25,165 nucleotides of DNA from a virus. Location: IMG/VR virus record IMGVR_UViG_3300000929_000083, positions 1-25,165 of that record, one strand, 5' to 3'. Below are positions 3,186 through 23,583 of the stretch, one piece after another. A program made the translations under genes and the position numbers. The first letter of the stretch is position 1, and every line of letters begins with the position of its first letter. The notes under the pieces are model-generated. The model made no database searches and was not told the DNA's origin. It saw only the letters and a list, made by a program, of their open reading frames with translations.

Positions 3186-3200
3186 ACCAAAACAAAGATG
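3183..3200 (+). repeat. recurrent gene-start leader, copy 2 (TAAACCAAAACAAAGATG)
   Basis: Identical over 18 nt to the copy at 2943-2960. Its TAA is the stop codon of the upstream gene and its ATG the start of the radical SAM gene at 3198, so it constitutes the whole intergenic junction. Confidence 0.85.
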
Positions 3201-4058
3201 AATAAAGTAAAATCTGTAGTAAGAAAGAGTATGAAAATTAGAGAGTCTGGAAGAAGTTCTGATTATATCACACCTTCTTTTGGCTACGGTTGTTTATTTA
3301 ATTGTACATACTGTTATATGAAGAGGCATTTGTCTGAGGGATTATCTATAGCTAGCAACACTGGTGATATATTAAGTGCTATTAATAATCATGCATTTTT
3401 CACTGTTGTAGATAAACCTAATCAGACACATGTAACTTACACTACATATGACATAAGTTGTAATGAAGACTTTGCATTGCATTCTAAACATCATGACTGG
3501 GAATATATATTTGAGTTCTTTAGAGATCATCCAAAAGCTATGGGCACATTTGCTACTAAAACTGTTCCTGTAAAATTCTTAGAGTTTGATCCAGAGAAGA
3601 AAATAAGAATAAGATTTAGTCTTATGCCTCAGAATATAGCAGATAAGCTAGAGCCTAACACTGCTAAAATTATAGATAGAATAAAGGCTGTTGATGCTTT
3701 CATAGAAGCAGGATATGATGTTCATTTGAATTTCTCACCTGTTGTAGTTTATGATGGATGGTTAGAAGATTATGATTTACTGTTTAAGATGTGTGATGAT
3801 TATATAGAAAACAAGGAAGAAGTTTTATCTGAAGTTATCTTTCTTACACATAATGCAGGTAAGCATCACTATAATTTAGATAACAATCTAGATGGTGAAG
3901 AACTATTATGGACACCGGAAAATCAGCAAACAAAAACTTCACAGTATGGTGGCATAAACATAAGGTATAAATATAATCTCAAAAGACAGTACATAAAAGA
4001 ATGGACTGAACTGCATGATAAGGTTATACCTTGGAATACAATTAGATATATATTTTAA
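3198..4058 (+). CDS. radical SAM enzyme, spore photoproduct lyase-like
   Basis: 286 aa. The cluster motif GCLFNCTYCYM gives C32, C36 and C39 (CxxxCxxC), the signature binding a [4Fe-4S] cluster and S-adenosylmethionine. The sequence context (ITPSFGYGCLFNCTYCYMKRH, then TYTTYDISCNEDF, TFATKTVPVKFLEFDP, RFSLMPQ) fits the SPL/splB-like branch of radical SAM proteins. Known for SPL: reversal of the spore photoproduct thymine dimer by a 5'-deoxyadenosyl radical. In a phage infecting non-sporulating hosts it more likely acts in repair or modification of thymine-type lesions or of another substrate; that is inference. It is preceded by the repeated leader and sits in a run of small accessory genes between primase and ligase. 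No separate maturase or partner gene is seen. Confidence 0.8.
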   Translation: MNKVKSVVRKSMKIRESGRSSDYITPSFGYGCLFNCTYCYMKRHLSEGLSIASNTGDILSAINNHAFFTVVDKPNQTHVTYTTYDISCNEDFALHSKHHDWEYIFEFFRDHPKAMGTFATKTVPVKFLEFDPEKKIRIRFSLMPQNIADKLEPNTAKIIDRIKAVDAFIEAGYDVHLNFSPVVVYDGWLEDYDLLFKMCDDYIENKEEVLSEVIFLTHNAGKHHYNLDNNLDGEELLWTPENQQTKTSQYGGINIRYKYNLKRQYIKEWTELHDKVIPWNTIRYIF

Positions 4059-5760: not shown

Positions 5761-6244
5761 AATTTATATGGGAATAGACATAGGTCTAAGTGGTGCAATA
5801 GCAATAATTGAAGATGGCGAGATTACCGGAAGTAAAATGCCTGTATTAGGTAAAGGAATTGATCCACAAACTATTATTGCTGCTATGCAACATGAAAAAC
5901 CAGATCACGTGATATTTGAAAAACTTGGTGTAATATTCGGAACAAGCAAAGCTACTGCTTTTTCAATGGGTTACCAAAGTGGTGTAATTGAAGCTGCATG
6001 TATCAGTCTTAAAATTCCTTATACAATCGTTCCTGCCAAACAATGGCAAAAAGATATGTATGTTGGAGTACAGGAAGCTAAAAAATCTAATGGAAAAAGA
6101 GATACAAAAGCAATGGCTCTTATCGCATGTAAAAGAATATTCCCGGATATAGATCTTACATTAACTAGTAGAGCAAATAAACCTCATGATGGTTATATAG
6201 ATGCAATTCTCATGGCCGAATGGGGAAAAAGAAATAACTTATGA
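5753..6244 (+). CDS. RuvC-like Holliday junction resolvase
   Basis: 163 aa with the RNase H-like fold acidic set: D9 in MGIDIGLSGAIAII, E56 in HVIFEKL, and H145-D146 with D150 in KPHDGYIDAILMAEW. These correspond to the catalytic residues of RuvC; the length also matches RuvC (about 160-175 aa). Known reaction: Mg2+-dependent symmetric cleavage of four-way DNA junctions. In a phage it would resolve recombination and replication branches before packaging. Next to ligase, SSB, Sak4-like ATPase and the exonuclease it completes a recombination set. The start overlaps the upstream small gene by 8 nt and its TGA overlaps the next ATG (ATGA). Confidence 0.88.
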   Translation: MAKIYMGIDIGLSGAIAIIEDGEITGSKMPVLGKGIDPQTIIAAMQHEKPDHVIFEKLGVIFGTSKATAFSMGYQSGVIEAACISLKIPYTIVPAKQWQKDMYVGVQEAKKSNGKRDTKAMALIACKRIFPDIDLTLTSRANKPHDGYIDAILMAEWGKRNNL

Positions 6245-6672
6245 CAAACAAAGTAACATTAACAACAGAAAGCACTACTAAACTAATAGAAATGATATCG
6301 TCCACTGATAAGGATAATACATTTTTAGCACTTAGTGCAATTAATGAATCAAACCTTGAAGATTCTTTGGGTTTTATAATAGTGATTTATAAGTTTTCAA
6401 AAATTCATCCAAAAGAATGGTCTAATTATCCTAACATATATAAAGTGTTTCAAGAGATTGATTTAATTGACTCAGAGTCAAGTTATAAAATTGATACATC
6501 TAAAGTATTAGGAACAATGCTTTCACAACAATGTAACATGGAGTCCATAGTTATGTTTTTAAAATTCCATAATAAGAATCTTCTTAACAGTTTAACAGCA
6601 TGGGGATATGATGTAAAAGATTTAATGATTGATATAAATTTAAAAGAAAAAGAACATGCAGAAGAGAGTTGA
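6241..6672 (+). CDS. unknown helical protein sharing a domain with the protein at 9218-10390
   Basis: 143 aa. Residues about 14-60 (LIEMISSTDKDNTFLALSAI, NLEDSLGFIIVIYKF) resemble residues about 220-256 of the 390-aa protein encoded at 9218-10390 (LSSMFMSTDQDNHILAMEIM, NYKKSLLYIELLF). The shared pattern is (M/S)STDxDNxxLAxxxxxxxNxxxSLxxIxxxY, an alpha-helical, Leu-repeat-like segment. The pair brackets the zincin-VWA and MoxR genes, suggesting that both may be binding partners of that machinery. No catalytic motif. Start ATG overlaps the resolvase stop (ATGA), and the end overlaps the next gene by 17 nt. Function unknown. Confidence 0.7.
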   Translation: MTNKVTLTTESTTKLIEMISSTDKDNTFLALSAINESNLEDSLGFIIVIYKFSKIHPKEWSNYPNIYKVFQEIDLIDSESSYKIDTSKVLGTMLSQQCNMESIVMFLKFHNKNLLNSLTAWGYDVKDLMIDINLKEKEHAEES

Positions 6673-7975
6673 CGAACTGGCCAAAACCAGTAGAAGTTTA
6701 ATGTTAAAAGAGCCCTTTTATGGGTTCTTTCTTATTATGCTTAACAAAGTGTGGAATAATAAAAAAGTTCCTACAGCTTGTGTAAGTAAAAATGGTATAA
6801 ATTACCAGTTAACAATAAATGAAACTTTTTGGGATTCATTGTCTGAAGATCACAGACTTGGTATATTAAAACATGAATTGCTTCATATTGCAATGTTTCA
6901 TTTAACAACACACCATACTTATCCTGACCATCAATTAGCAAATATTGCTATGGATATGGAAATAAATCAGTACATAGATGAAGCATGGTTACCAAGTGGT
7001 GAATTAAGTAAAGAAGAGTATGAAAGTCAAACTCAAACAACTCTTCAAAATTTAAAATCTCAATTAGATTCTGGATCAATTAGTGAAGAAGAATACATGA
7101 AAGGTCTGAAGGAAATACCTTCAAGAGGAATAATGATTAAAGATTATGATGAGTTAAATCTTGATTTAAGAGCAGGAACCCGATACTACTATGATAAATT
7201 AAGTCAAGCAAAAGAAGAGAAAGAAAAGAATGGTTCTTCTGGTTGTGAATCTTTTGATAAGCTGTGTGATCAAATGGATAAAGAGGGTGATCCTTGTAAT
7301 CATGATTCATGGGATGAGTTTAATGATTTATCAGAAGCTGAAGGTAAACTTATTAATAAGCAGTTAGATAGACTTTTAAAAGAGTCAGCCTCACAAACAT
7401 TGAAAAAAAGAGGAACCGTCCCAGGTGAATTTTCAGAGTATATTAATAATATTGACAAAAAAGAGCCTCCTAAATTTGATTGGAAAGGTTACATAAGACG
7501 ATTCACGGGAATATCCACAAGAGTATTTACAAAAAAAATTAAAAGAAAACCTAACAAAAGATATGATGGTAATCCTGGACTTAAAATAAAAATGAAACAA
7601 CATATGTTGTTGGCAATTGATACATCAGGTTCTGTATCTAATGAAGAATTAAAAGAGTTCATGCAAGAAATAAATCATATTTACAATACAGGTGTTGCAG
7701 TAACAATTATACAATGTGATACTGCAATAAAAAGCATCAAAGAGTATAAAGGTAAATTAAATGAAATGACCGTTCATGGTCGAGGAGGGACAGAATTTGA
7801 TCCAGTCCTAGAATATTACAATGTAAATCTTAAAAAGTATACAAGTTTAGTATACTTTACAGATGGAGAGTGTCATGCTTCAGTAAGGCCAAAAGCACCT
7901 GTGTTATGGGTTTTATCTGAAAGATCAAGTATGAATGAAAATTTACCAGGAAAAACAATCAAATTAGAACTTTAA
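6656..7975 (+). CDS. zincin plus VWA-domain protein (DUF2201-like), MoxR partner
   Basis: 439 aa. N-terminal DUF2201_N-like part has HELLH (H73, E74, H77) in LGILKHELLHIAMFHL and the follow-up N96-IAM-D100-x-E-x-N104 region expected to supply further ligands, giving a metallopeptidase-like site. The C-terminal VWA-like domain (about 315-439) carries a complete MIDAS: D322-T-S324-G-S326, T379 in GRGGTEFD and D403 in YFTDGE. A charged linker (about 180-300) contains three Cys and a basic patch (KKIKRKPNKRYDG). Known for such proteins: they pair with MoxR-family AAA+ ATPases as substrate adaptors, and the MoxR gene follows by 10 nt. The phage role is unknown. An ATG at 6701 is an alternative start; two stem-loops lie at the 5' end. 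Confidence 0.85.
   Translation: MQKRVDELAKTSRSLMLKEPFYGFFLIMLNKVWNNKKVPTACVSKNGINYQLTINETFWDSLSEDHRLGILKHELLHIAMFHLTTHHTYPDHQLANIAMDMEINQYIDEAWLPSGELSKEEYESQTQTTLQNLKSQLDSGSISEEEYMKGLKEIPSRGIMIKDYDELNLDLRAGTRYYYDKLSQAKEEKEKNGSSGCESFDKLCDQMDKEGDPCNHDSWDEFNDLSEAEGKLINKQLDRLLKESASQTLKKRGTVPGEFSEYINNIDKKEPPKFDWKGYIRRFTGISTRVFTKKIKRKPNKRYDGNPGLKIKMKQHMLLAIDTSGSVSNEELKEFMQEINHIYNTGVAVTIIQCDTAIKSIKEYKGKLNEMTVHGRGGTEFDPVLEYYNVNLKKYTSLVYFTDGECHASVRPKAPVLWVLSERSSMNENLPGKTIKLEL
6676..6730 (+). promoter_or_regulatory. tandem stem-loops at the 5' end of the zincin-VWA gene
   Basis: Two successive hairpins: ACTGG/CCAGT (6676-6680 with 6687-6691, 6-nt loop) and AAAGAGCCC/GGGTTCTTT (6707-6715 with 6722-6730, one G-T pair, 6-nt loop). 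The second has the A-rich 5' arm and T-rich 3' arm seen in the operon's terminators but lies within the coding frame. They flank the alternative start at 6701. This may be an attenuator or translational control point; it could also be chance from the codons for KEPFYGFF. Confidence 0.35.
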
Positions 7976-7985
7976 ATTAATAAAA

Positions 7986-9161
7986 ATGAGTCAAATAGAA
8001 TTAAACGTAGAAGAATTAAAAGGGTTTTTAAAACACATTGTAAAAAACAATCAACATATACAAGCAGAAGGTAAAATGCCTGTTGCTGTAAATATAGAAG
8101 GTGATGCTGGATTAGGTAAGACATCCGCTATTGTTCAGTTAGCAGAAGAATTAAAAATGGATATTGTAAAATTAAACTTATCTCAAATTGAAGAATTAGG
8201 AGATTTAGTAGGATTTCCTTATAAAGAATTCTTAATGCAAAGAGAAGATGGGAAACAACAATGGGTTCAAGAATCTCTTATGCCTACTTATATTAGAAAT
8301 AAGTATAGACCGATGAACCAAAGTAGAATGAGTCACGCTGCTCCTGAATGGATTCAAGGAAAATCGGAAGGTGGTTTCTTAGTATTAGATGATTATACAA
8401 GAGCAGATCATAGATTTATGCAAGCAACCATGGAATTGATTGATAGACAACAGTATATTTCATGGTCTTTACCTAAAGATTGGCATATTATATTAACTAC
8501 AAATCCGGATAATGGGAACTACAATGTTACAGCATTAGATACTGCTCAAAAAACTAGATTTATTAGTACTAAAGTTAAATTTAATGACAAAGTATGGGCT
8601 AAATGGGCTGAAAGTGTAAAAATTGATGGTAGATGTATTAACTTTTTATTAATGCACCCAGAGTTGGTTACTGAAAACGTGAATCCTAGAGCAATAACTA
8701 CATTCTTTAATTCAATTAGTTCAATTAAAAACTTTGAAACAGAGCTTCCTTTAATTCAAATGATTGGTGAGGGATCTGTGGGTAATGAATTTTCAAGTTT
8801 ATTTACAATGTTTATCAATAACAAACTTGATCAAATCATTACTCCACATGTAGCCATGACAATGGTTGATGAAAAGAATGTTCTAGCTCAGTTAGAAAAT
8901 GCAATTGGAACAGGTCCTGATTATAGAGCTGACATTGCAAGTATGATGACAACTCGAATAATAAATTACTGTTTGCTACACGCGGAAAGTAATCCAATTT
9001 CTGATTTAATGGTAGAAAGGTTGGTAAAGTTCAGTACTGATTGTACATCATTTACAGATGATTTAAAGTATTATCTTATAAAAGAAATCATCAATGGTAA
9101 CAAAGTTAAGTTTGCTAAATTAATGATGCATTCTTCTGTCATACAAATGGCTATTAAATAA
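7986..9161 (+). CDS. MoxR-type AAA+ ATPase
   Basis: 391 aa. Walker A GDAGLGKTS at 39-47, Walker B GFLVLDDYTRAD with D135-D136 (Asp in place of the usual second Glu), sensor 1 ILTTNPDNG at 169-176, and an Arg-rich segment after it (TAQKTRFISTKV). The 'ALDTAQKTRF' stretch corresponds to 'alDxAfxxRF' of the AAA_5/MoxR/CbbQ families. Known for the family: chaperone-like remodelling of a partner complex together with a VWA protein, as in RavA-ViaA or MoxR systems. The DUF2201/VWA partner is encoded immediately upstream. It is followed by a strong terminator, so the pair ends a transcription subunit. Family firm; target unknown. Confidence 0.87.
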   Translation: MSQIELNVEELKGFLKHIVKNNQHIQAEGKMPVAVNIEGDAGLGKTSAIVQLAEELKMDIVKLNLSQIEELGDLVGFPYKEFLMQREDGKQQWVQESLMPTYIRNKYRPMNQSRMSHAAPEWIQGKSEGGFLVLDDYTRADHRFMQATMELIDRQQYISWSLPKDWHIILTTNPDNGNYNVTALDTAQKTRFISTKVKFNDKVWAKWAESVKIDGRCINFLLMHPELVTENVNPRAITTFFNSISSIKNFETELPLIQMIGEGSVGNEFSSLFTMFINNKLDQIITPHVAMTMVDEKNVLAQLENAIGTGPDYRADIASMMTTRIINYCLLHAESNPISDLMVERLVKFSTDCTSFTDDLKYYLIKEIINGNKVKFAKLMMHSSVIQMAIK

Positions 9162-9176
9162 ATTATTTATTAACAC

Positions 9177-9206
9177 AAAGGGACTGGAAAATCTAGTCCC
9201 TTTTTT
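9177..9206 (+). terminator. intrinsic terminator after the MoxR gene
   Basis: AAAGGGACT (9177-9185) pairs with AGTCCCTTT (9195-9203); the stem can extend by GGA/TCT (one G-T pair) to 12 bp with an AAA loop, followed by six T in total. It lies 15 nt after the MoxR stop and just before the next gene. Confidence 0.85.
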
Positions 9207-9217
9207 AAACATTAATT

Positions 9218-10390
9218 ATGAAAAAACTTTTAATAATCAAATTAGAAACAGCTTATGGTGTTCAGACTGAAATAACTGGAAATGCAGGCCTTGCTTTTAT
9301 ATCTAATCAGAAAGACTTTAGGAAAATAAATTTTACAGAAGATTCTTATAAGCCACAGAAAGGTGATAAATTATACTTTTTACCTGCTGTAAGTGTACCA
9401 AGAATAAAATTAAAAGATTTAACTACAACGTTAGGTATAAAAACTACAAGAAGCATAGAAGATGCAAATGCTATATTTGGTTCAGAACGTACTTTTAATC
9501 ATATAACAGAAAGCTCTTGGTTTTCATATTGCAGTACATCTAGATTTAAACAATATTTAGAAGAAGCTTCATCAATATTGACTTTAGATTTTATTACAAT
9601 GATTAACGATTATTTAGAATCTTATAATGAAGAAATTGTTCTTTTGAAAAACTATGCAACAACTCGCATAATGCAAGATGAAGACAATTCATTTTCATTA
9701 ACGCATGAAGAAATAGATAATGATCATTTTACAAGTTTTAAGGATGATTATGACTATTTACGCGAATTACTATTTTTAGATGAAGTCAAGTGTAAATTAT
9801 ATAGTGAAGATGAGATAATAAAACATGTGAATGGTGAGAATGCTATTATAATTGACGAAGAAGTTTTTAAGAATTTATCGTCCATGTTTATGAGTACGGA
9901 TCAGGACAATCATATTTTAGCTATGGAAATTATGTCTAATTGTAATTACAAAAAAAGCTTGCTATATATAGAATTGTTATTTATGGATCATAGTCAAACT
10001 ATGGTAAACACGGGTAAGAAGAATCATGTAAACTTTAAAAGTCTATGTTCTTATTTATCTAAAGATTCAACTTATTTATCAACATCACTTGATAATGTAA
10101 TGGAATCATTAGAAGGAAAAGGACAATTAACTAAAGAAAATATTGAAAAACTTCTAAAACACAAAAGCCAAACAATTAGTTTATCCGGTTCTTATAAGTA
10201 TTTTACTATAAAAGCTATTTCTTTAAAGGAAGAAGTTTTGGAAAAAATGAATTCAAATTTTAATTACACTCTACAAAATGATTACGTTCCAGTAGTTAAT
10301 GTAGAAAAGATGATTGCAAGTGAAGAGGAGAATCCTGTTGATGAAATAATAATTGAAGAATCTTTAACAAAACCACAATATGATCTTTAA
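9218..10390 (+). CDS. large unknown conserved phage protein with the STDxDN helical domain
   Basis: 390 aa. The N-terminal part (KGDKLYFLPAVSVPRIKLKDL, KTTRSIEDANAIFGS, SSWFSYC) follows a pattern I recall from large Bacteroidota phages, where it is unannotated. Residues about 215-280 contain the helical domain shared with the 143-aa protein at 6241-6672 (STDQDNHILAMEIM). The C-terminal 40 residues are acidic and end in KPQYDL. No enzymatic motif is apparent. It is separated from the MoxR gene by a terminator and overlaps the exonuclease gene by 11 nt, so it is coupled to recombination functions as well. Possibly a scaffold or adaptor; this rests only on the shared domain and context. Confidence 0.7.
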   Translation: MKKLLIIKLETAYGVQTEITGNAGLAFISNQKDFRKINFTEDSYKPQKGDKLYFLPAVSVPRIKLKDLTTTLGIKTTRSIEDANAIFGSERTFNHITESSWFSYCSTSRFKQYLEEASSILTLDFITMINDYLESYNEEIVLLKNYATTRIMQDEDNSFSLTHEEIDNDHFTSFKDDYDYLRELLFLDEVKCKLYSEDEIIKHVNGENAIIIDEEVFKNLSSMFMSTDQDNHILAMEIMSNCNYKKSLLYIELLFMDHSQTMVNTGKKNHVNFKSLCSYLSKDSTYLSTSLDNVMESLEGKGQLTKENIEKLLKHKSQTISLSGSYKYFTIKAISLKEEVLEKMNSNFNYTLQNDYVPVVNVEKMIASEEENPVDEIIIEESLTKPQYDL

Positions 10391-11381
10391 CGAAGAGTTA
10401 GAAAAATTTTATGAAACTAAAAGCTATTTTAGTTACTCTGCTATAAATAAGCTTCTGTATTCACCAAAAGTATTTTATAACCATTATATATTAAAAGAAA
10501 GAGAAGATAGCACAGATGCTCACTTAGTAGCAGGTAAAGCTATTCATTGTCTGTTATTAGAAGAGAATACTTTTGAAAAACAATTTTTAATCATTCCAGG
10601 AAAATTACCAACAGGTAATAATAAGACTGTGGTTGACAAGTGTTTTCAAGAATATGAAAATCAACCGGATGATACTTTGAAATTAGATGATTTTGAAGGA
10701 ACTATTCTTGAGACTTTGGTTTCTATAAACGTGCATCAGACTTTGAAAACTGATGCACAAAGAGTAGAGAAAATACTGATTGATAATAATCAAGAATATT
10801 TTGAATTCTTAAAGTCTAGAAATGGCAAAGCTCTCATCAGTCAAGAAATGTATGATGAATGTTTAGCAACAGTTGCATATGTAAAAGAAGATAAAAATGT
10901 TATGGCATTGCTACAACTAAACACCCCTAGTTCAGAAACCTTTAAAGTATTTAATGAAGAGTTTTTAGAAATGGATCTTGAAGGTTATAGTTTCGGTCTT
11001 AAAGGAGTATTAGATAATGTAGTAGTTGATTACAATACTAAGTCATTATTCATTAATGATATCAAAACTACAGGAAAACCAATTCAAGAATTTGGTAAAA
11101 CAGTTGATTATTATAACTATTGGATACAAGCTACCATATATGAGAAGCTTGCTGTTCATAAATATTTAAATGATTTAGAAGATAAAAATGATTGGAAAGT
11201 ATATTTAACGTTTATTGTTATTGATAAGTTTAATTCAGTTTATCCTTTTCAAGTTTCAAAAGAAACGTTAGTTGAATGGAAAAATAAATTTGAAGAGATC
11301 GTTAAAAGAATCGTATATCATTATGACTCTAAAGATTATACTCTTCCTTACGAATTAGCTTTAGGACACTTTAAACTTTAA
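10380..11381 (+). CDS. PD-(D/E)XK exonuclease, RecE/Cas4-like
   Basis: 333 aa. The N-terminal segment YFSYSAINKLLYSPKVFYNHYI and AGKAIHCLLLE (H56) is typical for RecB/RecE-like nucleases. The PD-(D/E)XK core follows: GLKGVLDNVVVD with D212, then FINDIKTT with D227-x-K229, and a downstream helix with Q250 and Y254 (YYNYWIQATIYEKL), matching the 'QxxxY' motif of exonucleases. Expected reaction: 5'-3' degradation of duplex ends giving 3' single strands for annealing by SSB and the Sak4-like ATPase. The usual length of the phage family is 250-350 aa. It starts inside the upstream gene (11-nt overlap). Nuclease assignment is strong, polarity is inferred. Confidence 0.85.
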   Translation: MIFNEELEKFYETKSYFSYSAINKLLYSPKVFYNHYILKEREDSTDAHLVAGKAIHCLLLEENTFEKQFLIIPGKLPTGNNKTVVDKCFQEYENQPDDTLKLDDFEGTILETLVSINVHQTLKTDAQRVEKILIDNNQEYFEFLKSRNGKALISQEMYDECLATVAYVKEDKNVMALLQLNTPSSETFKVFNEEFLEMDLEGYSFGLKGVLDNVVVDYNTKSLFINDIKTTGKPIQEFGKTVDYYNYWIQATIYEKLAVHKYLNDLEDKNDWKVYLTFIVIDKFNSVYPFQVSKETLVEWKNKFEEIVKRIVYHYDSKDYTLPYELALGHFKL

Positions 11382-12449: not shown

Positions 12450-14444
12450 ATGAAAACACATTGGGTGCATGATTATGAAACCTTGGCAAATTGTTTTGTC
12501 GGAGTATTTAGAAGTATAAATTCAGAAGAGATTAAGATATTTGTAATTCATGATCTTAGAAATGACTTACCGGATTTTATAGAATTCTTAAAAAGAAATA
12601 TAAAACAAAAAGAATGGCATGTATCTTATAATGGTCTCGCTTTTGATGGACAAATAACGCATTATATTATCAAGAACAGTGAGGCATTACTTGATATGTC
12701 CGGATGTGAAGTTGGAGAATGGATTTATGAGAAGGCCCAATTTGTTATTTCAGCAAGAAGTCAAGGTCATTTTTTAGAATTTAGTGAAAGAGACATGCAA
12801 ATATATCAAGTTGATGTGTTCAAACTCAATCATTGGGATAATCCTGCTAAAAGATCCAGTTTGAAATGGATACAATATTCAATGGATTGGCATAATATAC
12901 AAGACATGCCTATTCATCACACTAAAATGATTACTACACTAGATGAAATAGAGGAAATTATTAGTTACTGTATTAATGATGTTGACTCTACTAAAGAAAT
13001 AATGATTAGAAGTAAATCTCAGATTGCTTTGCGGAAGACTCTTACTGATGAGTATAACATTCCATTGTTCAGTGCTTCTGAACCAAGAATTTCAAAAGAA
13101 TTGTTTTTACACTTCTTGAGTGAAAAGACTGGTATAAATAAATGGGACCTTAAAAAGTCAGGAACAAAAAGAGATAGTATTGTTGTTAAAGACATAATAC
13201 TTGATTACATAAATTTTAAAACAGCTACTTTCCAAAAATTGTTGGATAGATTCAAAGAAGTAATTGTATATCCTGATCAGACAAAAGGAGGTTTTAAATA
13301 CTCCATACAATATAATGGTGTAAAGACTGATTTTGGTCTTGGAGGAATTCACGGAGCTAGAGAAAAGGGTATTTATGTATCTGATAAAGAAAACGTTATA
13401 CTATCTTCAGATGTTGTAAGTTATTACCCTAGATTAGCCATGGTTAATCAATGGTCACCAGCACATATCCCTAAAGAAGCTTTTTGTGAACAATACCAAT
13501 GGTTTTTTGATGAACGGAGAAAGATATCTAAAAAAGATATTAAAAACTACGTGTACAAGATTATATTAAATTCAACTTATGGGTTGAGTAATGATAAGCA
13601 TAGCTTTCTTTACGATCCTGAATTTACCATGAGAATAACTATTAATGGTCAGTTAAGTCTTTGTATGTTATATGAGATGATTATGGAAAGAATTCCAGGT
13701 GCTGTTCCATTACTTCAAAATACAGATGGTCTTGAGACTATAATTCCAAGAAAGTATGTTGATGAGTACATGAAAATATGTGAAGAATGGCAAGAAATAA
13801 CTAAGCTTGAATTAGAACATGATAAGTATAAAAAAATTGTGTTAGCTGATGTAAATAATTATATAGCTGTATCATCTTACAAAGAAGTTACAGAAGAAGT
13901 TTATAATGAACTTAAAATTAGTAACCCGGATGATGTATTTGCTCAAAATAAAGGTAAATTCTATTATGCAGGTGTAAAGACTAAAGGAATGAGGTTTGAG
14001 TATGCAAATCTGGCTTTACATAAAAATAAAAGTTTTCTGATTACTCGTAAAGCACTGTTTAATTACTTTGTGCACGGAATAAATCCTGAAGAATTCATTA
14101 AATCTCAAACTAATATTTTTGATTTTTGTGGAGGAGTAAAAATAAAAGGAGATTGGAAATTTCAAAAAGAACAAATATCAAATGGTGATTATTCTATAGA
14201 ACCCTTGCAAGAAACAATTAGATACTATATTTCTAATACTGGAGGTAAAATAATTAAGGTTAATAAATCTGATGGTAGAAGATCACAGGTTGAAGCAGGA
14301 AGATGGCTCCAAACTCCATTCATTAAATTTGAAGAAAAAGAGTTTAATGAATACGATATAAATTATAAGTATTATTTAGATAAGGTTAATAAAATTATAC
14401 AATCTATTGAACCTGTTAATAATCAACTTAAATTAGAATTTTAA
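12450..14444 (+). CDS. family B DNA polymerase with 3'-5' exonuclease
   Basis: 664 aa. Exonuclease motifs: Exo I HDYET (D8, E10), Exo II VSYNGLAFDGQ (N61, D66), Exo III SYCINDVDST (Y173, D177). Polymerase motifs: motif A SSDVVSYYPRL (D321), motif B KIILNSTYG (K370, N374, Y377), motif C LLQNTDGLE (N424-T-D426), where the first Asp of the usual DTD is Asn while the second, metal-binding Asp is kept. GGIHGA (299-303 region) fits the YxGG-like linker between exo and pol domains. Only about 50 residues separate motifs A and B, so there is no room for the TPR1 insertion of protein-primed enzymes; a primase is encoded in the same block. It replicates the phage genome. The stop is directly followed by the next ATG. 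Confidence 0.9.
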   Translation: MKTHWVHDYETLANCFVGVFRSINSEEIKIFVIHDLRNDLPDFIEFLKRNIKQKEWHVSYNGLAFDGQITHYIIKNSEALLDMSGCEVGEWIYEKAQFVISARSQGHFLEFSERDMQIYQVDVFKLNHWDNPAKRSSLKWIQYSMDWHNIQDMPIHHTKMITTLDEIEEIISYCINDVDSTKEIMIRSKSQIALRKTLTDEYNIPLFSASEPRISKELFLHFLSEKTGINKWDLKKSGTKRDSIVVKDIILDYINFKTATFQKLLDRFKEVIVYPDQTKGGFKYSIQYNGVKTDFGLGGIHGAREKGIYVSDKENVILSSDVVSYYPRLAMVNQWSPAHIPKEAFCEQYQWFFDERRKISKKDIKNYVYKIILNSTYGLSNDKHSFLYDPEFTMRITINGQLSLCMLYEMIMERIPGAVPLLQNTDGLETIIPRKYVDEYMKICEEWQEITKLELEHDKYKKIVLADVNNYIAVSSYKEVTEEVYNELKISNPDDVFAQNKGKFYYAGVKTKGMRFEYANLALHKNKSFLITRKALFNYFVHGINPEEFIKSQTNIFDFCGGVKIKGDWKFQKEQISNGDYSIEPLQETIRYYISNTGGKIIKVNKSDGRRSQVEAGRWLQTPFIKFEEKEFNEYDINYKYYLDKVNKIIQSIEPVNNQLKLEF

Positions 14445-15995
14445 ATGGCAGTAAGAATTAAAGACACGACAAGAGTAGAACTTTGTAATATACCTGTACC
14501 AGCAAGTACAACCTCTAATAGAGGATACACTGCAATATCACATAAATCCATAATGGATTTTGCATCAGCAGAGCTAGAGAAAGCAGGTTTTAATATTCAG
14601 AGTGAATCGTACAGATGTACAGGAGATGGTAATATAGCACAAGGTATATATCATTTAACATATAATAATGATCCCGAAATAGGGATGATGTTTGCTTGGT
14701 CAAACAGTTACAATAAACAAATGCGTTTTAAATGTGGGATTGGTGGCTATGTCATGGTTTGCATGAATGGAATGTTAACCGGAGATATGGGTAGTTGGAG
14801 TAGAAAACATACAGGAACAGCTGATGAAGACACAGAAAATACCATATTGGATCAAATAACAAATGCTCACAAATATTACAATCAACTTATTACTGATAAA
14901 AATAAGATGAAAGAAATAATAGTGACAACAAAGGAACAAGCTGCTTTATTAGGTGTTCTGTTTGCTGAATATGAGATCCTTACTACAGAACAAATGTCTA
15001 TAGTTAAGGAGCAAATGAACAAACCTAGTTTTGCATACAACGCTCATAGAAATAGTTTATGGGCTTTTTATAATCATGTTACACTATCTTTGAAAAAGTC
15101 TCACCCAAGAACATGGATGGATGATCAAAGAAAATTACACATGTTTATAGGACTTGAATATGATTTATATAATTTCGACCCAAGTACTGTAGAAGATACT
15201 ATTGTAGAAGATGCAGTTATAGAAGATCCTTTATTAAAAGACCCTGCCCAAACAAATATTCTAGCTCAAATTGAGGAAGCTGAAGCAAACTCTTTTAATA
15301 GCACATTTTATACAGGGCCAAATAAAGAAACAATAATTGCTATCACTCCTGAAGACGATCTTTCATATGGGCCTGTTCCAGATGTAGCAGAAATTGAAGA
15401 ACCTCCATGTTTATCTTACACAGGAACAATTGCTGAAGAACATTCTGAAATAAAAGCAGTTGATGTATTAAAATCATTAGCTGATACAATGGTAGCTCCA
15501 CTTAAGTCAGACGATCCTTTACCATTATCAACATTGTCAGATGACCTTCCTCAAAAAGAAGAAGAAGAATTTGATTGGAAGATAAATGGGGGCAAGCCAA
15601 GCATTACAATGGGTGAGGAAATAACAGGTGTAACAGCCGAGATGATTGAAGATGCACGACCTAAGATTTACATTGAATCTGATGATGAGTACTACCAAAG
15701 AGTAGCTTCTATTGAAGGTGAACCTGAAGAAGTTAATGCTACAGAAGAAGCTGACAATATTCAATCAAGACTTGGAGCTATAAACTTTGAGGAAGATGTT
15801 GTATATGACCGTTCTACTTCAGATGTTACTGAAATTGAAGGTCCAACAATATTTGAGATGGAATCAGAAACTGCTGAATCAGCTATAGTTTATCCAAAAG
15901 CTATTCAAGATAATATCATAGAAGATGATGAATTAGAATTTAGTTTTTCTGAAAGTGATGACGATGATGATGAACCTTTGGATTTTGATTTATAA
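14445..15995 (+). CDS. DUF932-like protein with long acidic tail
   Basis: 516 aa. Residues 1-245 match the DUF932 outline found in phages and plasmids: YTAISHKSIMDFASAELEKAG, MMFAWSNSYNKQMRFKCGIGGYVMVCMNGMLTGDM, later NSLWAFYNHVTLSLKKSHPRTWMDDQRKLHMFIG. Residues about 246-516 are a low-complexity, very acidic, Pro/Thr/Ser-containing extension that is likely disordered and includes EDTIVEDAVIEDPLLKDP-like imperfect repeats. The end, DDDDDEPLDFDL, imitates an SSB-type acidic tip. The gene abuts the polymerase stop with no gap, indicating matched expression. DUF932 function is not established; the context suggests a DNA replication or recombination accessory protein that may bind SSB partners or mimic DNA. 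Confidence 0.72.
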   Translation: MAVRIKDTTRVELCNIPVPASTTSNRGYTAISHKSIMDFASAELEKAGFNIQSESYRCTGDGNIAQGIYHLTYNNDPEIGMMFAWSNSYNKQMRFKCGIGGYVMVCMNGMLTGDMGSWSRKHTGTADEDTENTILDQITNAHKYYNQLITDKNKMKEIIVTTKEQAALLGVLFAEYEILTTEQMSIVKEQMNKPSFAYNAHRNSLWAFYNHVTLSLKKSHPRTWMDDQRKLHMFIGLEYDLYNFDPSTVEDTIVEDAVIEDPLLKDPAQTNILAQIEEAEANSFNSTFYTGPNKETIIAITPEDDLSYGPVPDVAEIEEPPCLSYTGTIAEEHSEIKAVDVLKSLADTMVAPLKSDDPLPLSTLSDDLPQKEEEEFDWKINGGKPSITMGEEITGVTAEMIEDARPKIYIESDDEYYQRVASIEGEPEEVNATEEADNIQSRLGAINFEEDVVYDRSTSDVTEIEGPTIFEMESETAESAIVYPKAIQDNIIEDDELEFSFSESDDDDDEPLDFDL

Positions 15996-16106: not shown

Positions 16107-16322
16107 ATGGATGATCTTTTTTTCAAAAATCCAATTGACCAAGAATTTTTTGATTTAACTAAAAATTTTGATATACAGGATTGGAGAGATCTTAGAGATG
16201 ACAACTATTGGTATGAGGAATGTCCTTTTACTAATGTCATGAAACCTAGAGAAAAGGCAAGTAAGTTAGAATTAATTAGATACTACGTTAAACATGGTAT
16301 TAGAAAAAATAAAAATGGCTGA
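16107..16322 (+). CDS. small acidic-aromatic protein of unknown function
   Basis: 71 aa. N-terminal two thirds rich in Asp, Phe and Trp (MDDLFFKNPIDQEFFDLTKN, DWRDLRDDNYWYEECPF), then a basic helix (REKASKLELIRYYVKHGIRKN). No family recognised. It is the first gene after the 111-nt intergenic region, and its TGA overlaps the next start by 8 nt (ATGGCTGA). Confidence 0.6.
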   Translation: MDDLFFKNPIDQEFFDLTKNFDIQDWRDLRDDNYWYEECPFTNVMKPREKASKLELIRYYVKHGIRKNKNG

Positions 16323-16537: not shown

Positions 16538-16846
16538 ATGAAAACAATTGAATTTAAACCAATGGGTGATAACTTAATATTAGAATTAGTTGCACCTGCT
16601 GAAACAACAGAACAAGGTCTTATAATTCCAGAACAATATAGAGTACAGCTTCCTATGGCCTATGTATTAGCTGCGGGCCCTAATGCTGAATGTAAACCTG
16701 GAGATAAAGTTAGTATTAATATGGCCATGCCTAAACCTGTAGTTCTTACTGAAGGTGAGTTTTTAATGGTTAGTGAAGACAAAGGAGTTTTCGGAATTCT
16801 CATAACTACGGATCCTAAATTTAAAACGCATTTGACTGAAGATTAA
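16538..16846 (+). CDS. GroES-like co-chaperonin
   Basis: 102 aa, the usual Cpn10 length. It has the typical start (FKPMGDNLILELVAPAETTEQGLIIPEQ), a mobile-loop region around residues 20-33 with the hydrophobic IIP triad that contacts GroEL, a 'VLAAGPNAECKPGDKVSI' turn and a terminal 'GVFGILI' strand. Known role: seven-subunit lid on the host GroEL; phage versions such as T4 gp31 allow folding of large capsid proteins. Here it probably helps fold phage structural proteins. It is the only clearly morphogenesis-related gene in the plus-strand block, near the end of the operon. Confidence 0.85.
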   Translation: MKTIEFKPMGDNLILELVAPAETTEQGLIIPEQYRVQLPMAYVLAAGPNAECKPGDKVSINMAMPKPVVLTEGEFLMVSEDKGVFGILITTDPKFKTHLTED

Positions 16847-17721: not shown

Positions 17722-20700
17722 TTATTGTAACTTAGAATTCTCAAATATTTCAGCTTTCTTAATTGCTGTAATAGGATCGTAGTTTTTACCTTTGACACCA
17801 AGTAGTGCAAATAAGTGATTCCATAATTTATATCTACCTTCTTCCTGCCATGGGTAAGGACCAGCATCTTGAGAGTATACTGCTTTTGAGTCACCAAATG
17901 TCATTCGTGTTAAGTCACCAATTATTTTTCCCCAGACACCAATGGTGGGTCCTGTTGCAATTGTTGAATTGTTTGTAAATTCTAACCAATCACCTAATCC
18001 TACCATAGGTAATGGTATAAATGCCTGATTTTCAGTTTTTACCATCATTACTTGATACAACATATGATTGGCCATCCATCCTGCAGTACCGTATTCTCTT
18101 TCTCTTTCACGCATTTTTTCAAATCTATCTTCATCTCCCGGATCATAACCAAATAATAAACCAGCCATTAAACCTAAAACAGCTAAGAAAACTCCTTCAG
18201 ATATCATTTTCTTAACAGCTACCTTTTCTTCAGCTGTCATTAAAGGCCAATATTTTTCTGCATCGAATAATACTTTCTGCATTGCTTGCAAACCTGTTAT
18301 ATAGTAACCTTTAGTTGGTTCTCCTAAACTCCAGTCATAAACATCTTCAAGTGCACTTAGTCCTTTACCTTTTTTTAATTTAAGACCACCTTCTGGAATT
18401 TTTGCTTGGAATCTGTTAAGGAACATTGGAACAGCGTATCTTTTATAGAAAGTAAACAATCTGTACATTAAAAATTTATTAGCTTGAGGATTGTCTAATT
18501 CATCTAACTGACCATTAAGTTTAGCACCTATTCCTTGTATCTTAAGTTTAAATGTTTTAAATTTTTCACTTTTTGAAATAACAATCTCATCACCAACAGC
18601 AAGTTCTGTTATATTAACGTTATTGTTTCTTTTTTGTAATTCTTCAACAGTAACATTATACTTTTTAGCTAAACTTTCCCATGTGTCCTCTTTTTCAAAA
18701 GCATGCTTGACATGTTCAGTTCCATATGAAGGATCTATACCTTCTTTAAGAACCATTTGTTTTTCAGCATTCAATTCAAAAGCATTCATGTATGGAATTA
18801 ATTTTTGAGAACCGTCTTTTTGTATTTGACTTACATGTTTTCTATACATCATACCTCCAAATACTTGTAAACCAGCTTCTAAATCTGTAAGTCTTCTGAA
18901 ATCATACATCCATGTACCATCCATAAAATCTTTCATGAAAGTTCTTGAACTAGATTTACCAAAATCCTTTTTAGTTTTACCAGTGATTGGATCAAAATTT
19001 TCCATTATTTGTAAATCTAAACTTTTAGGACCCCTTGAATATATACCAGTAGTCATTAATGTACCCACAGCTTTAGTTGACCAACCTCTTCCTTGAGCTA
19101 AACTTCTAGCATTAATATACTTACCACCGCTTGCTTCAATCATAGATTGCAGAATCATTCCATATCTATTTTTTAAAGCAGATGTAACATCTAACATTAT
19201 AAAAGATCTAGAGGCCGCACCCATCATAACATTAGCTGCTTTCATAGCTGTTGCGTTATCTCCTTCATGATTAGCTTTACCATAAAGAGCTTTGTCAATT
19301 AAATAATCGATTGCTTTAGCTCTGTTATTTGTATCTTTAGACAAGAATGCCATAAGCCCTGTACTTTTAGCAATTTGTTTACTTGCTCTTGACAAATCTT
19401 TTATTTGAGCTTCCGGACTTAATAATACTTGTCTTACTGCTTCTAGAGGAGCTTGCATTTCTAAAGTACCTTCTTGCTCATTCAATGACTGCATGTATCT
19501 ATAAATAGACAATGTAACATCAGACGATACTTCTCCTGCTTTCAATTTATATAGACCACCAATTGGAACTTTATCTATTAAATTACCTTCTTGATCTGTT
19601 GATACAAGCAATGCATTAGGATCAAAATTAAAGTTATCTTCAGCATCATCAGCTGATTTAGAAAATAAAGATTTAACACCTCCTTTAATACCTTCTACTT
19701 TTCTTTTAAGATCTCCTTTAGCTTCTCCAGACTGGACATACTCCATATTGCTGTTTACTCTATATCTAGGAAAATCTAAATACAGTTTAGATGCTTTAGG
19801 TTTATTTTTTTGAATATTAATAAACTCTTTTTTAGTTGCTTCTAATAATTTAAATTGTGCATTGTTAGATGCCTCTAACTGTTCATACTTTTTATTAATG
19901 TACTTATCAGTTGCAGCACTTTTATATTCTCCTTTTTGATAAGGTCTTGGAAGATAATTCCCCCTGTTATCAATAATAAGGCCTACATAATCATCAGAAT
20001 CAGCATCTGTAGGGATTGTAAGGTACTCATCTTTAACTACTTTTTCTGTAAAAGAACTATTTGGAACACCAGGTAATCTCATTTTTTTACCTGTAATTGG
20101 ATTAACCAACTCAGTTACTCTATAATACTTATTATCTGCAGGAGTTGTTATTGACCAAACATCTGTACTAACATACGTTAATTCATATGATGTACCATTC
20201 CATAAATTTTTCTGGTAGTGATTTCTTTCAAACCATTCTTTAAATGAAGTACTGTTTTCCAAAGAATATTTTAAGTTATTGGACTTTAACCATTCACTAA
20301 TAGTACCCATTTTTATTTCATCTACACCATCTAAATCACGAAGAGCATTATTAAATGCATCGACATATTCTTGAGTATGTTTTTTATCTGTTAATTCAGT
20401 ACGATCGGCTATTAATGCATTGAATTTTGTTATATCAGAAGGACTCATCCCAACATTTGAAGACTTATTAAAAAGTGCATTGTAATCTTCTTTTTCTTCT
20501 TCAGTTAATGCTTGTTTCTTTTTTATAGAATACGTATAACTTCTCAATCTTGCAGCTTCTTCTTTAGTAAGACCTGTCTTTTGATCGAATTTATCTTGAA
20601 GAGTAACTATTTGTTCTTCAATATCTTTAAGCAATGCTTGTTGACCTGCACTCATCACTTGTCCATCAGGAATACCTTTCTCATTTCTAGAACCGGAAAC

Positions 20701-23583
20701 AAGAGCAGAACGTTGTATATACAAACTAGCTAGTTGTGATGCTACCGGGTTTGAATCTTTATATTTAGCTGAGATTTCTTTTAACCCTTGAGATACACGA
20801 TTTAATTCTTTAAAATATTCTTCAGTGAAGGCAGTTTTAAAGTTTTTCTCCATGTATTCTTCAATTTTTTTAATGAATGATTCTTTACCTTTTTCATCTG
20901 CTAAAGATATACCTACACCAGTTACATTATTTTTAATGTAAGTATCAAAGTCATCTTGAAGTTTTTTAGTATTTGTTTGATAATCATAAAAGTTTTTAGT
21001 CATATCTCTATGCTTCAATCTTAACAAAACTCTTTTTAATTCTTCTTCTGACTTTAAAGCGCCTTCTACTGTATAATAATTATAAAGAGCTTTATAATCT
21101 TTTTGAGCTTCTAAGTATGGATCAGTAGTATAACCATCCTCATCTTCTCTCTTATAAGTAGTTTTGCTATAAGTAGTCATCTCACTTATCTTGTCTCTTC
21201 TTTCTTTAGCGGCCAAAAATGATTGCTCTTCAGAGATTACTAATCTTTCTTTAGTAATCGGGTGAATTAAAACGTTTTCTTGTTCCCAAAGTTTTTCTGC
21301 TTCATAATACTTATCTGTATAATGTCTAAACATGTAGTCTTCATTAAACTTAGCAAGCTTTTTTACAGCTACGTGTACCGCATCTTGATCACCATCTGTT
21401 TTAGCTTTCTCTATATCGTACTTTAATTTATCTAAGTCTGATCTCCAACCATTTGAAAATCTGTTCATGAATGTGTACACTTCAAAACTTTCAAAATTTC
21501 CATCTTTATCTTGGGTCCCTACAGTATCTAATTGGAGCAAGGCATCTGCTAATTGTTTAGTATTATTAGGATTATATCCAAAATCTTTAAGTAAAGGTTC
21601 TAATTTAGTTCTGATAGCATTTTCTTCTCTATTAGTTTTTGTTTGTATATCTGTAAGCTTATTTCTTAAAAACTTAATAAGACTACCAGTTAGTGGATCA
21701 TTGATATTAGAGTATGGTACTATCATTGATTGTATCATACCAATATCACCTTTTTCACCACTAAGGAATTTATCAATAACTTGTTTATTAAGTCGTTGAT
21801 TGAAGTAAGTGTTAATGGTTTTAACAAATATTTTTGAATTGCTTAAGGATTCAGGTAAACCTAAGTCTTTAGGAGTTATTGTTTTATTTTCACTCTTTAT
21901 TATTTTTTCAATAGCTTCTTCAATTTGAGCTTCCGGGATTTTATTTAATGTAAGAATTCTAGTAATGCGTTCTTTCATGTTCTCTTCTACAGCCTCATTC
22001 ATTTCTGAAACACCATCTACGAAAAACTCACCAACAAATTCTTTAATTAAATTACCTGTTTTATCAGAAGCATCTGCAACTACTGCATTAATAGATAGTA
22101 TTTTACTAGATAATGGATTATTTGGATTTTGCTCAATTGTCTGTCTAATACTTTTTAAAAATCTTTTTTGACTAGCTAAAAATTGTTGGTAATACATGAT
22201 CTTTGCTATTCCCTCATGAGTAAAATGTTGTTTCTTTTTTTTCATTTGGTCAAGCAGCCCATCAATTTTATGGACCCAAACAGAAATCTCATTGATTGAA
22301 TTTACAAAAGCTATAGAACGTACTCTAAATTCTTCTTGTTGAAGCCTCATAGCATCAGCAATTTCTTTATCACCAATTTGATCAATTGTTTGATAACCTC
22401 TCAGTTCTCTTTTTACATTCTTTAAAATATCGATACCCTCTTTCAATTCACCTTTTAATCTATTTGGTGTTCTTTCTAGTGAACTGATCTCATTATTGAT
22501 TTCCCCGTATACTTTATTGATTAAATCAACAAGTTTTTGATTATCTCTATTATAAACTAAATCTTTATGTAACTCATCAAACTCGGCCTTAAATTCTGCA
22601 AAGTCAGATACTTTTAAATCTAATTCATTTATGATGAAGTCTTCATTGATCATCATGTTTGCTAATTCTTCAAGAGTAGTATTAGCACTTAAGTTTTTTA
22701 AGTTAACTTGTTTAGTAAGTTTCCTAAGTACTTGTTTAATAGCAAACAAAAGATTATTAATGAATTCTTTAAATCCAGATTCAGTCTCTGTTTTTTTTTC
22801 TACTTCATCAGCAGATATTTTTTCTAGTGCACGAACAAGAACCTCTTCTTTAAATCGATCAGTACCAACCTCAAGATTTGGGTACTTGGCTGTTACTGTA
22901 TTAATAATAGTTTGACCTGCTGCAGTTGATTGTAACTGATTGTATAGTTTGTTGAATAAAACGTTATTAGTCTGTGCAATTCCTTTTATTAAAGGGTGAG
23001 CGTACTCATGTAATACATTATTTACATTAAAGTTACCCTCTACAAAAAATATAGTATTATTAAAAAAGAAAGCTCCTTGATTATCATAAGGTGTATTACT
23101 GTTTTGAAGAACTATTTCAGCTTCTCTTGCTGATACTACTCTATACTCCATGTTAAAAGCTGCCGCAAACTTATTACCTAATGCTGTAGCTATTGCACTT
23201 GCCTTAGTTGCATCAAGATCAGCTTGGTCCAAACTCATCATTTGGTAATTTTCTTTTGCTATATCATCAAATAAATAATCATCGGTGTATCTAACACCAG
23301 CTCTTTCTGCATCTTCTCTTTGAACAGAAGTTGCTTCCCTTTCTTCAATAATTAATTCTTTAAGGTAATACTTATCAATCAACGATTGAGGAATTGTAAT
23401 AGAAGCTTCTACTAAATCTCTTGTTCCACTAAAATATCCATATTTTATTACAGGGACTTGAAATCGTTCATTTATCTCTGCTGCAACTTCATTCGCATCT
23501 TTAATAGACAACCCAATACCTTTTTTTGCAAGTTCTTCAATCTTGTTATAGAGGTTTTCTTTTATTTCAATTACACAAGGCAT
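17722..23583 (-). CDS. giant polyvalent protein: zincin, coiled coils, LysM, hydrophobic C-terminus
   Basis: 1953 aa. The start MPCVIEIKENL resembles the start of polyvalent proteins of Bacteroidota phages. Residues about 130-260 form a zincin-type metallopeptidase: HEYAH (H192, E193, H196; bases 22996-23010) followed by FKEEVLVRALEK (E246/E247) as likely third ligand. The middle (about 300-1350) is charged, heptad-like and probably a long coiled coil. The region about 1420-1620 (MMGAASRSFIMLDVTSALKNR .. MYDFRRLTDLEAGLQVFGG) is a globular virion-type domain interrupted or followed by a LysM motif (DTWESLAKKYNVTVEELQKRN .. GDEIVI) at about 1630-1675. A hydrophobic segment (GVFLAVLGLMAGLLFGY) is at about 1792-1810. 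Likely packaged in the virion and injected; protease plus glycan-binding parts could help entry or protect the incoming genome. Role is inferred. Confidence 0.82.
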   Translation of the reverse strand: MPCVIEIKENLYNKIEELAKKGIGLSIKDANEVAAEINERFQVPVIKYGYFSGTRDLVEASITIPQSLIDKYYLKELIIEEREATSVQREDAERAGVRYTDDYLFDDIAKENYQMMSLDQADLDATKASAIATALGNKFAAAFNMEYRVVSAREAEIVLQNSNTPYDNQGAFFFNNTIFFVEGNFNVNNVLHEYAHPLIKGIAQTNNVLFNKLYNQLQSTAAGQTIINTVTAKYPNLEVGTDRFKEEVLVRALEKISADEVEKKTETESGFKEFINNLLFAIKQVLRKLTKQVNLKNLSANTTLEELANMMINEDFIINELDLKVSDFAEFKAEFDELHKDLVYNRDNQKLVDLINKVYGEINNEISSLERTPNRLKGELKEGIDILKNVKRELRGYQTIDQIGDKEIADAMRLQQEEFRVRSIAFVNSINEISVWVHKIDGLLDQMKKKKQHFTHEGIAKIMYYQQFLASQKRFLKSIRQTIEQNPNNPLSSKILSINAVVADASDKTGNLIKEFVGEFFVDGVSEMNEAVEENMKERITRILTLNKIPEAQIEEAIEKIIKSENKTITPKDLGLPESLSNSKIFVKTINTYFNQRLNKQVIDKFLSGEKGDIGMIQSMIVPYSNINDPLTGSLIKFLRNKLTDIQTKTNREENAIRTKLEPLLKDFGYNPNNTKQLADALLQLDTVGTQDKDGNFESFEVYTFMNRFSNGWRSDLDKLKYDIEKAKTDGDQDAVHVAVKKLAKFNEDYMFRHYTDKYYEAEKLWEQENVLIHPITKERLVISEEQSFLAAKERRDKISEMTTYSKTTYKREDEDGYTTDPYLEAQKDYKALYNYYTVEGALKSEEELKRVLLRLKHRDMTKNFYDYQTNTKKLQDDFDTYIKNNVTGVGISLADEKGKESFIKKIEEYMEKNFKTAFTEEYFKELNRVSQGLKEISAKYKDSNPVASQLASLYIQRSALVSGSRNEKGIPDGQVMSAGQQALLKDIEEQIVTLQDKFDQKTGLTKEEAARLRSYTYSIKKKQALTEEEKEDYNALFNKSSNVGMSPSDITKFNALIADRTELTDKKHTQEYVDAFNNALRDLDGVDEIKMGTISEWLKSNNLKYSLENSTSFKEWFERNHYQKNLWNGTSYELTYVSTDVWSITTPADNKYYRVTELVNPITGKKMRLPGVPNSSFTEKVVKDEYLTIPTDADSDDYVGLIIDNRGNYLPRPYQKGEYKSAATDKYINKKYEQLEASNNAQFKLLEATKKEFINIQKNKPKASKLYLDFPRYRVNSNMEYVQSGEAKGDLKRKVEGIKGGVKSLFSKSADDAEDNFNFDPNALLVSTDQEGNLIDKVPIGGLYKLKAGEVSSDVTLSIYRYMQSLNEQEGTLEMQAPLEAVRQVLLSPEAQIKDLSRASKQIAKSTGLMAFLSKDTNNRAKAIDYLIDKALYGKANHEGDNATAMKAANVMMGAASRSFIMLDVTSALKNRYGMILQSMIEASGGKYINARSLAQGRGWSTKAVGTLMTTGIYSRGPKSLDLQIMENFDPITGKTKKDFGKSSSRTFMKDFMDGTWMYDFRRLTDLEAGLQVFGGMMYRKHVSQIQKDGSQKLIPYMNAFELNAEKQMVLKEGIDPSYGTEHVKHAFEKEDTWESLAKKYNVTVEELQKRNNNVNITELAVGDEIVISKSEKFKTFKLKIQGIGAKLNGQLDELDNPQANKFLMYRLFTFYKRYAVPMFLNRFQAKIPEGGLKLKKGKGLSALEDVYDWSLGEPTKGYYITGLQAMQKVLFDAEKYWPLMTAEEKVAVKKMISEGVFLAVLGLMAGLLFGYDPGDEDRFEKMREREREYGTAGWMANHMLYQVMMVKTENQAFIPLPMVGLGDWLEFTNNSTIATGPTIGVWGKIIGDLTRMTFGDSKAVYSQDAGPYPWQEEGRYKLWNHLFALLGVKGKNYDPITAIKKAEIFENSKLQ

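Follow-up and report, generated by a model that had tools for sequence, protein, structure and literature searches.

A zincin-VWA protein and a MoxR-like ATPase are linked to a third protein and to a recurring helical hairpin in the replication region of crAss-like phages

The 25,165-base IMG/VR virus record IMGVR_UViG_3300000929_000083 (positions 1-25,165; hereafter the window) carries on its plus strand a cassette of four genes, which encode the 6241 protein (A), a zincin-VWA protein (B), a MoxR-like ATPase (C) and the 9218 protein (D). This gene set is conserved among replication and recombination genes in related viruses, and A and D share a two-helix hairpin that recurs on other proteins of the same phages. 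We tentatively read B and C as a MoxR-VWA remodeller belonging to the replication-recombination module and acting on a replication or recombination complex, with D as the obligate third component and the hairpin as a candidate docking tag; we put the chances of this reading a little short of even. The four open reading frames lie where a sequence-only reading of the window had placed them (A, 6241-6672; B, 6656-7975; C, 7986-9161; D, 9218-10390; all on the plus strand, as are the motifs, the hairpins of A and D, the C-D stem-loop and the primase, exonuclease and polymerase genes given below).

To follow the linkage, we searched IMG/VR with C, which returned 336 related stretches, and with D, which returned 228. 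Of each, 80 were kept, and since three of the D-found stretches were already in the C-found set, 77 were new. The order A-B-C-D-exonuclease on one strand was fixed in about 150 IMG/VR loci, where it sits between the primase and the DNA polymerase genes. Wherever the contig was long enough, B, C and D had the same order and strand and were followed by the exonuclease, in the C-found as well as the D-found loci. The sequence-only reading would have been refuted by phages in which the proteins sharing the repeated element regularly occur without the MoxR-VWA pair; each of the 77 new D loci had C, and no D turned up that lacked the pair. D and the exonuclease gene overlapped in nearly all loci, and so did A and B in most of them (by 17 nucleotides in the window, where A also overlaps a RuvC-like gene by 4 nucleotides). 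A was absent upstream of B in one subclade (L115, L132, L139, L143 and L149), and in L115 and L135, the two loci inspected in detail, the primase abuts B. This subclade keeps B-C-D, and therefore the obligate third component is D rather than A. In L135 (2593-4953), B and C form one in-frame open reading frame, joined exactly at the end of B and the start of C, with the stop codon and spacer gone. Such a fusion is predicted by a physical partnership of the two proteins, although it was found in a single contig and may be a sequencing error or a local accident. The proteins of the relatives were 58-71% (B), 67-73% (C), 29-39% (D) and 22-35% (A) identical to those of the window, so that A and D change far more rapidly than the other two.

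B (439 amino acids) is a zincin-VWA protein of the N4 gp25 type. It matched the Pfam families DUF2201_N (1.4e-17, 64.7 bits, cut-off 23.2) and DUF2201 (2.3e-19, 70.1 bits, cut-off 26.4) and the PHROG family 1314 (1.9e-63). The HELLH zinc motif (residues 73-77, positions 6872-6886) has H73, E74, L75, L76 and H77 invariant in the relatives. The metal-ion-dependent adhesion site (MIDAS) consists of a conserved DxSxS element (DTSGS, residues 322-326, 7619-7633), the threonine loop RGGTEF as read from the motif (residues 376-381, 7781-7798) and TDGE at residues 402-405. As already seen from the letters, B lies between A and D with both sites intact: judged by these residues, the HExxH and the DxSxS-T-D elements are complete, and B is a putative peptidase. 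We rejected the label "HNH endonuclease" that PHROG_1314 would give to B, as B is a zincin-VWA protein by Pfam. The same label stands on DUF2201 zincin-VWA proteins such as N4 gp25 in PHROG_1314 and in RefSeq phage records, and looks like a propagated misannotation.

C (391 amino acids) is an N4 gp24-like AAA+ ATPase that matched the PHROG ATPase family 1297 (2.8e-29). By motif reading it has a Walker A motif (GDAGLGKTS from residue 39, 8100-8126) and a Walker B region (LVLDDYTRA from residue 132, 8379-8405) with Asp-Asp for the usual Asp-Glu. Since a Walker B of the hhhhDE type is missing, we call it MoxR-like. A sensor-1-type TTNPD and the elements AQKTRF and NPR are, like Walker A, invariant or nearly so, and the relatives of the two proteins retain the residues of the zinc site, the MIDAS and Walker A. 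The gene of the VWA partner adjoins that of C across the loci. The proposed MoxR-VWA pair is thereby borne out by the motifs of C, its PHROG match and the adjoining VWA gene; that the two proteins work together is suggested by knowledge of their families and by the one fusion.

Both genes are interrupted in some relatives, B in 12 and C in 11 of about 160 loci each, and the interruptions that we checked hold open reading frames for LAGLIDADG or GIY-YIG homing endonucleases. The insertion sites are mostly HEL/LH and RGG/TEF in B and, in 10 of 11 cases, RAD/HRF in C, that is, inside or beside the zinc, MIDAS and Walker B elements. Among the interrupted loci are L102 (4039-5080), L104 (1508-3758), L111 (3487-4393), L144 and L123. 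Rfam identified group I intron RNA in L123 only and gave no detection in the intervening sequences of L102, L104, L111 and L144, which we infer to be group I as well. In crAss-like phages, introns are known in core genes of some members, and mobile introns occur at conserved sites (PMC7886860). B and C are targets of intervening sequences as crAss-like core genes are, and by this analogy they may therefore be core genes of the lineage.

The sequence-only reading had further proposed that A and D share one helical domain. Their homology was confirmed: BLASTP aligned them at 2e-4, and profile-profile comparison gave a probability of 96% (E about 3e-9) with a score of 65.8, against 20.2 for the best of 100 column shuffles. 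Comparison of A or D with the other cassette profiles gave probabilities of 0.1-0.8%. The A profile matched all 145 D proteins at E<1e-3, and the D profile matched 61 of 141 A proteins. The similarity is confined to residues 6-37 of A (TLTTESTTKLIEMISSTDKDNTFLALSAINES, 6256-6351) and 211-242 of D (IIDEEVFKNLSSMFMSTDQDNHILAMEIMSNC, 9848-9943), both delimited by profile comparison. Outside the hairpin none was detectable between A 38-143 and D 243-350 (probability 0.4%, score 12 versus a shuffled maximum of 19.6). The common element is thus a two-helix hairpin of 32-35 residues and not a proven whole domain. In the structure models of A and D it starts an all-helical bundle, and both proteins continue all-helical with a similar helix order. 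The pattern STDxDNxxLAxxxxxxxNxxxSLxxIxxxY, which had drawn attention to the two proteins, is exact in A and has F instead of Y at its last position in D. An EF-hand reading of the SxDxDN loop was rejected because the spacing does not fit.

The hairpin is not limited to A and D: proteins encoded at other places in the genome have it too, which lay beyond the view of the sequence-only reading. The A profile alone found additional copies in the same genomes (E 1e-9 to 1e-4), on at least three otherwise unrelated protein families, X, Y and Z. The gene of protein X (134-199 amino acids; L165-L170, L174, L176-L181) stands close to that of a uracil-DNA glycosylase, at a distance of about 8-10 kb from the cassette; the protein has a conserved segment with YLWYMYxxGT and FRPFxxxAE followed by the hairpin; a family search with X gave no convincing match. 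Protein Y (about 100-125 amino acids; L171-L173, L175, L182, L183, L285-L364) ends in the hairpin: among 36 proteins scored, which include at least one Z, only 0-2 residues follow it. Protein Z (about 90 amino acids) adjoins Y and likewise ends in the hairpin, and both are encoded near genes for an IHF-like protein, an exonuclease and the terminase. A hairpin profile found one to five copies in each of 20 genomes out of 20, and two to five in all but the two A-less ones. The E-values of this profile are inflated, as it was built partly from these copies; the discovery with the A profile was made without them. No hairpin was found by profile in six other MoxR-VWA phages; 13 further phages, run together with a positive control, had no convincing one. 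All six contigs of more than 82 kb that were reached through X or Y had the MoxR gene (one of them, G007, belonged to the first set as well). The four contigs reached in this way without the gene measured 41-80 kb and may be fragments.

This spread raises the main rival that has to be excluded, namely that the hairpin is a lineage-specific structural element propagated by duplication and fusion, so that A, D, X, Y and Z would serve unrelated functions and stand in no special relation to B and C. The copies are scattered over the genome, A and D resemble each other nowhere else, Y has another loop variant, and helix-capping residues could account for the conservation of SxDxDN. However, the loop residues are invariant or near-invariant in A, D and X (S, D, D and N invariant in X), the hairpin of Y always sits at the C-terminus, the MoxR gene is present on all contigs of more than 82 kb reached through X or Y, and D was not seen without C. 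We consider this explanation possible though rather unlikely.

D (390 amino acids, 9218-10390) is marked as the obligate partner by its linkage. The model (mean predicted local distance difference test, pLDDT, 80; 95-98 in the hairpin region) has an alpha/beta N-terminal part, a helical domain at residues of about 197-323 and a disordered acidic tail. Foldseek found nothing significant for D in the PDB; several BRCT structures were among the top matches (E 0.24 or worse, probability up to 0.60), and the modelled N-terminal alpha/beta domain is possibly BRCT-like. A sequence match to the PDB entry "NrN" (E 0.006) was judged to be chance, as the alignment covers the variable end of D. Among predicted viral structures, D had fold matches in crAss-like virus ctYsL76 (one), Podoviridae ctz6O13 (two) and an uncultured phage (one) with E 6e-13 to 3e-7, and D-type folds therefore extend beyond the lineage. 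No D homologues were found in bacterial and archaeal genomes or, by tblastn, in named phages. B, C and D were not found in nine named crAss-like or related phages, in a search without an in-batch positive control. The D proteins of most relatives have an acidic C-terminal stretch tipped by [DE]xWF or a similar motif, a candidate tip of the SSB type. A very acidic C-terminus was also seen in the DUF932 protein (window 14445-15995), whose relatives frequently end in PDFF, similar in type to the tip of the D tail.

A (143 amino acids, 6241-6672), a variable third partner, is modelled with seven helices (pLDDT 89), and a fold search of solved structures (PDB) gave no significant match. Its relatives are about 30% identical to each other. 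Profile searches found no A or D homologues in other MoxR-VWA phages, although PEV2 gp34 and nACB1_060 adjoin the VWA gene at a comparable position.

Between C and D lies a stem-loop (9177-9203) that ends 14 nucleotides before the start codon of D and is the counterpart of a covarying stem-loop in the relatives. It was present in 88 of 89 distinct C-D gaps, ending at least 10 nucleotides before the start of D (10-19 nucleotides in 81 of the 88). The loop is mostly GTAAxA, seven of its eight pairs have two-sided changes with pairing preserved, and a T-run follows in part of the gaps. The element could act as a terminator or regulate the expression of D. It speaks for a control of D separate from that of A-B-C, and the four genes are not necessarily one transcription unit. 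Similar stem-loops precede the primase (1835), the polymerase (12450) and the open reading frame at 16107 in the window.

The replication context suspected from the letters alone is clear: the neighbours of the cassette in the lineage are a primase, a Sak4-like protein, an exonuclease and a DNA polymerase. The replication module of the window comprises a Sak4-like protein, a Toprim primase (1835-2845; the upstream neighbour in the relatives), a ligase, a RuvC-like resolvase, an exonuclease VIII-like PD-(D/E)XK exonuclease (10380-11381; it always adjoins and overlaps D and belongs to the syntenic block) and a family B DNA polymerase (12450-14444; the downstream end of the block). This polymerase and its relatives end in QLSLF or QLKLF, a QLxLF motif that we take to be of the sliding-clamp-binding type. 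A radical SAM protein resembling spore photoproduct lyase (3198-4058, Pfam SPL 1.9e-25) is encoded within the module, and a GroES-like co-chaperonin (16538-16846) near the block. After the replication genes, the opposite strand encodes a 503-amino-acid protein and a 1953-amino-acid protein (17722-23583) with a LysM domain and a HEYAH motif near its start.

The terminase and portal of a 115-kb relative matched, by tblastn among named phages, mostly crAss-like or related ones (cr272_1, cr118_1, Bacteroides phages, Cellulophaga phi17:2, an Azobacteroides phage and Flavobacterium Fpv20). The closest portals were those of Leptolyngbya phage Lbo-JY46 (33.6% to the lineage portal) and csAssE-Sib, both without order-level placement in their records. 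By these matches, therefore, the source lineage is crAss-like, in or beside Crassvirales. Our impression is that it is abundant and, from the metagenome sources, mostly freshwater.

In the remodeller reading, a hexamer of C would be the motor and B the substrate-engaging cofactor, with its MIDAS and an added zincin domain, and B would sit on the C ring like NorD on NorQ. D would act as an adaptor that tethers the machine to replication or recombination proteins, perhaps those of the replisome, through its N-terminal alpha/beta domain and aromatic-tipped acidic tail. A, D, X, Y and Z would dock through the SxDxDN hairpin that they bear, an acidic loop residue possibly completing the MIDAS metal site, and the docked complex would then be remodelled by ATP hydrolysis or trimmed by the zincin. 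NorQD serves as the working model: the finger of its VWA protein reaches into the pore of the ring, and the MIDAS contacts the target (PMC9976466, PMC13036017). The partner of the NorD MIDAS is formed by acidic residues of the target and not by NorQ (PMC9976466). A more ambitious version, which we regard as doubtful, makes the portable 32-residue hairpin an address tag: the MoxR-VWA-peptidase machine with its adaptor D would read the tag and remodel or process its bearers, and so time the replication, recombination and packaging complexes.

Several observations weigh against the remodeller reading. C has no canonical Walker B glutamate, both Asp residues being invariant in 25 sequences, and scores below the Pfam cut-offs for AAA_5 (17.5 bits, cut-off 22) and AAA_3 (15.6 bits, cut-off 27). 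The D of the window has no aromatic tip and ends in QYDL. The loop of Y is SxDEAS and not SxDxDN, which weakens a single acidic-residue docking rule. That the four genes form one machine, as the sequence-only reading held, agrees with their fixed linkage across the lineage but less well with the subclade lacking A and with the conserved stem-loop that sets D off from A-B-C. Finally, virion proteins are encoded near the pair in the N4-like phage RPP1 (PMC4193335), and in S-TIM5 a structural gene and Hsp20 stand beside it.

The last two cases belong to the main functional rival, that B and C serve virion assembly or maturation as chaperone and cochaperone, assembling or processing the structural proteins. 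Virion assembly was indeed proposed for the pair of jumbo phages (PMC7824862), and the pair of the virus ATV is linked to tail development (PMC4124505); moreover, the gene of Y is found where the structural block begins, close to the genes for the IHF-like protein, the exonuclease and the terminase. The cassette, however, is embedded in the replication block, with the structural genes on the other strand, the N4 counterparts gp24 and gp25 are middle genes (PMC4193335), and neither A nor D matched a structural (virion) family in Pfam or PHROG. We hold a virion role to be unlikely. Still more improbable is host takeover or counter-defence, in which the machine would remodel or cleave a host complex with A and D recognising the targets: A and D do diverge faster than B and C, as host-facing parts would, and MoxR-vWA ternary systems are bacterial conflict systems (PMC7159879), but the cassette has its place within the replication genes and not in an accessory region, is strictly conserved across the lineage and has only weak matches to defence families (PADLOC: PtuA and PDC-M47B, E 1e-3 to 5e-3).

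Among known systems, NorQ-NorD, CbbQ-CbbO and RavA-ViaA resemble B-C in combining a MoxR hexamer with a VWA cofactor, and differ from the cassette in having cellular targets and no D or A. We know of no zincin fusion in these three. The ternary conflict systems share with the cassette a MoxR ATPase, a vWA protein and an obligate third component, which there is VMAP, iSTAND or FtsH (Kaur et al. 2020, PMC7159879); neither A nor D matched any of these in Pfam, PHROG or PADLOC. The experimental viral MoxR-VWA pair, ATV p618/p892, likewise joins a MoxR ATPase to a VWA cofactor, but it is without a peptidase domain, and p618 is a virion component (PMC4124505, PMC7824862). Group 2.2 jumbo phages have a pair of MoxR and metallopeptidase-vWA (Iyer et al. 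2021, PMC7824862) with the same two-protein architecture as B-C, the metallopeptidase being N-terminal in the VWA protein; unlike the cassette, this pair has no D or A partner described.

Closest is phage N4, where the gp24 ATPase adjoins the vWFA protein gp25 upstream of helicase and polymerase genes in the Schitoviridae core. By tblastn, gp25 is a relative of B with HELWH and DTSGS, and the C and B profiles recognise the N4-type ATPases and VWA proteins of PEV2 and nACB1. In N4-type phages the pair precedes helicase and polymerase genes, and in a Moorella phage a helicase gene. N4 differs in its gene order, ATPase-VWA instead of VWA-ATPase, in belonging to a different phage lineage and in having no A or D homologue and no hairpin. 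Although they are core to a whole phage family, gp24 and gp25 are still without an assigned function (PMC4193335, PMC7650795). The sequence-only statement that no phage function was described for such a set thus stands for N4, but overlooks the virion-assembly proposal and the ATV pair. The obligate partner D and the recurring hairpin provide a testable list of candidate substrates or adaptors for the pair. Should the hairpin prove to be a recognition tag, these phages would encode an addressing system for an AAA+ remodeller, and we found no precedent for one in the open-access literature searched. In the same literature we found no description of the fixed set with D, of the hairpin family and its spread, or of the cassette in crAss-like phages. 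The pair of a MoxR ATPase and a metallopeptidase-VWA protein is already known from N4 and the jumbo phages, and what appears new here is its fixed association with D, the recurring hairpin and the crAss-like setting.

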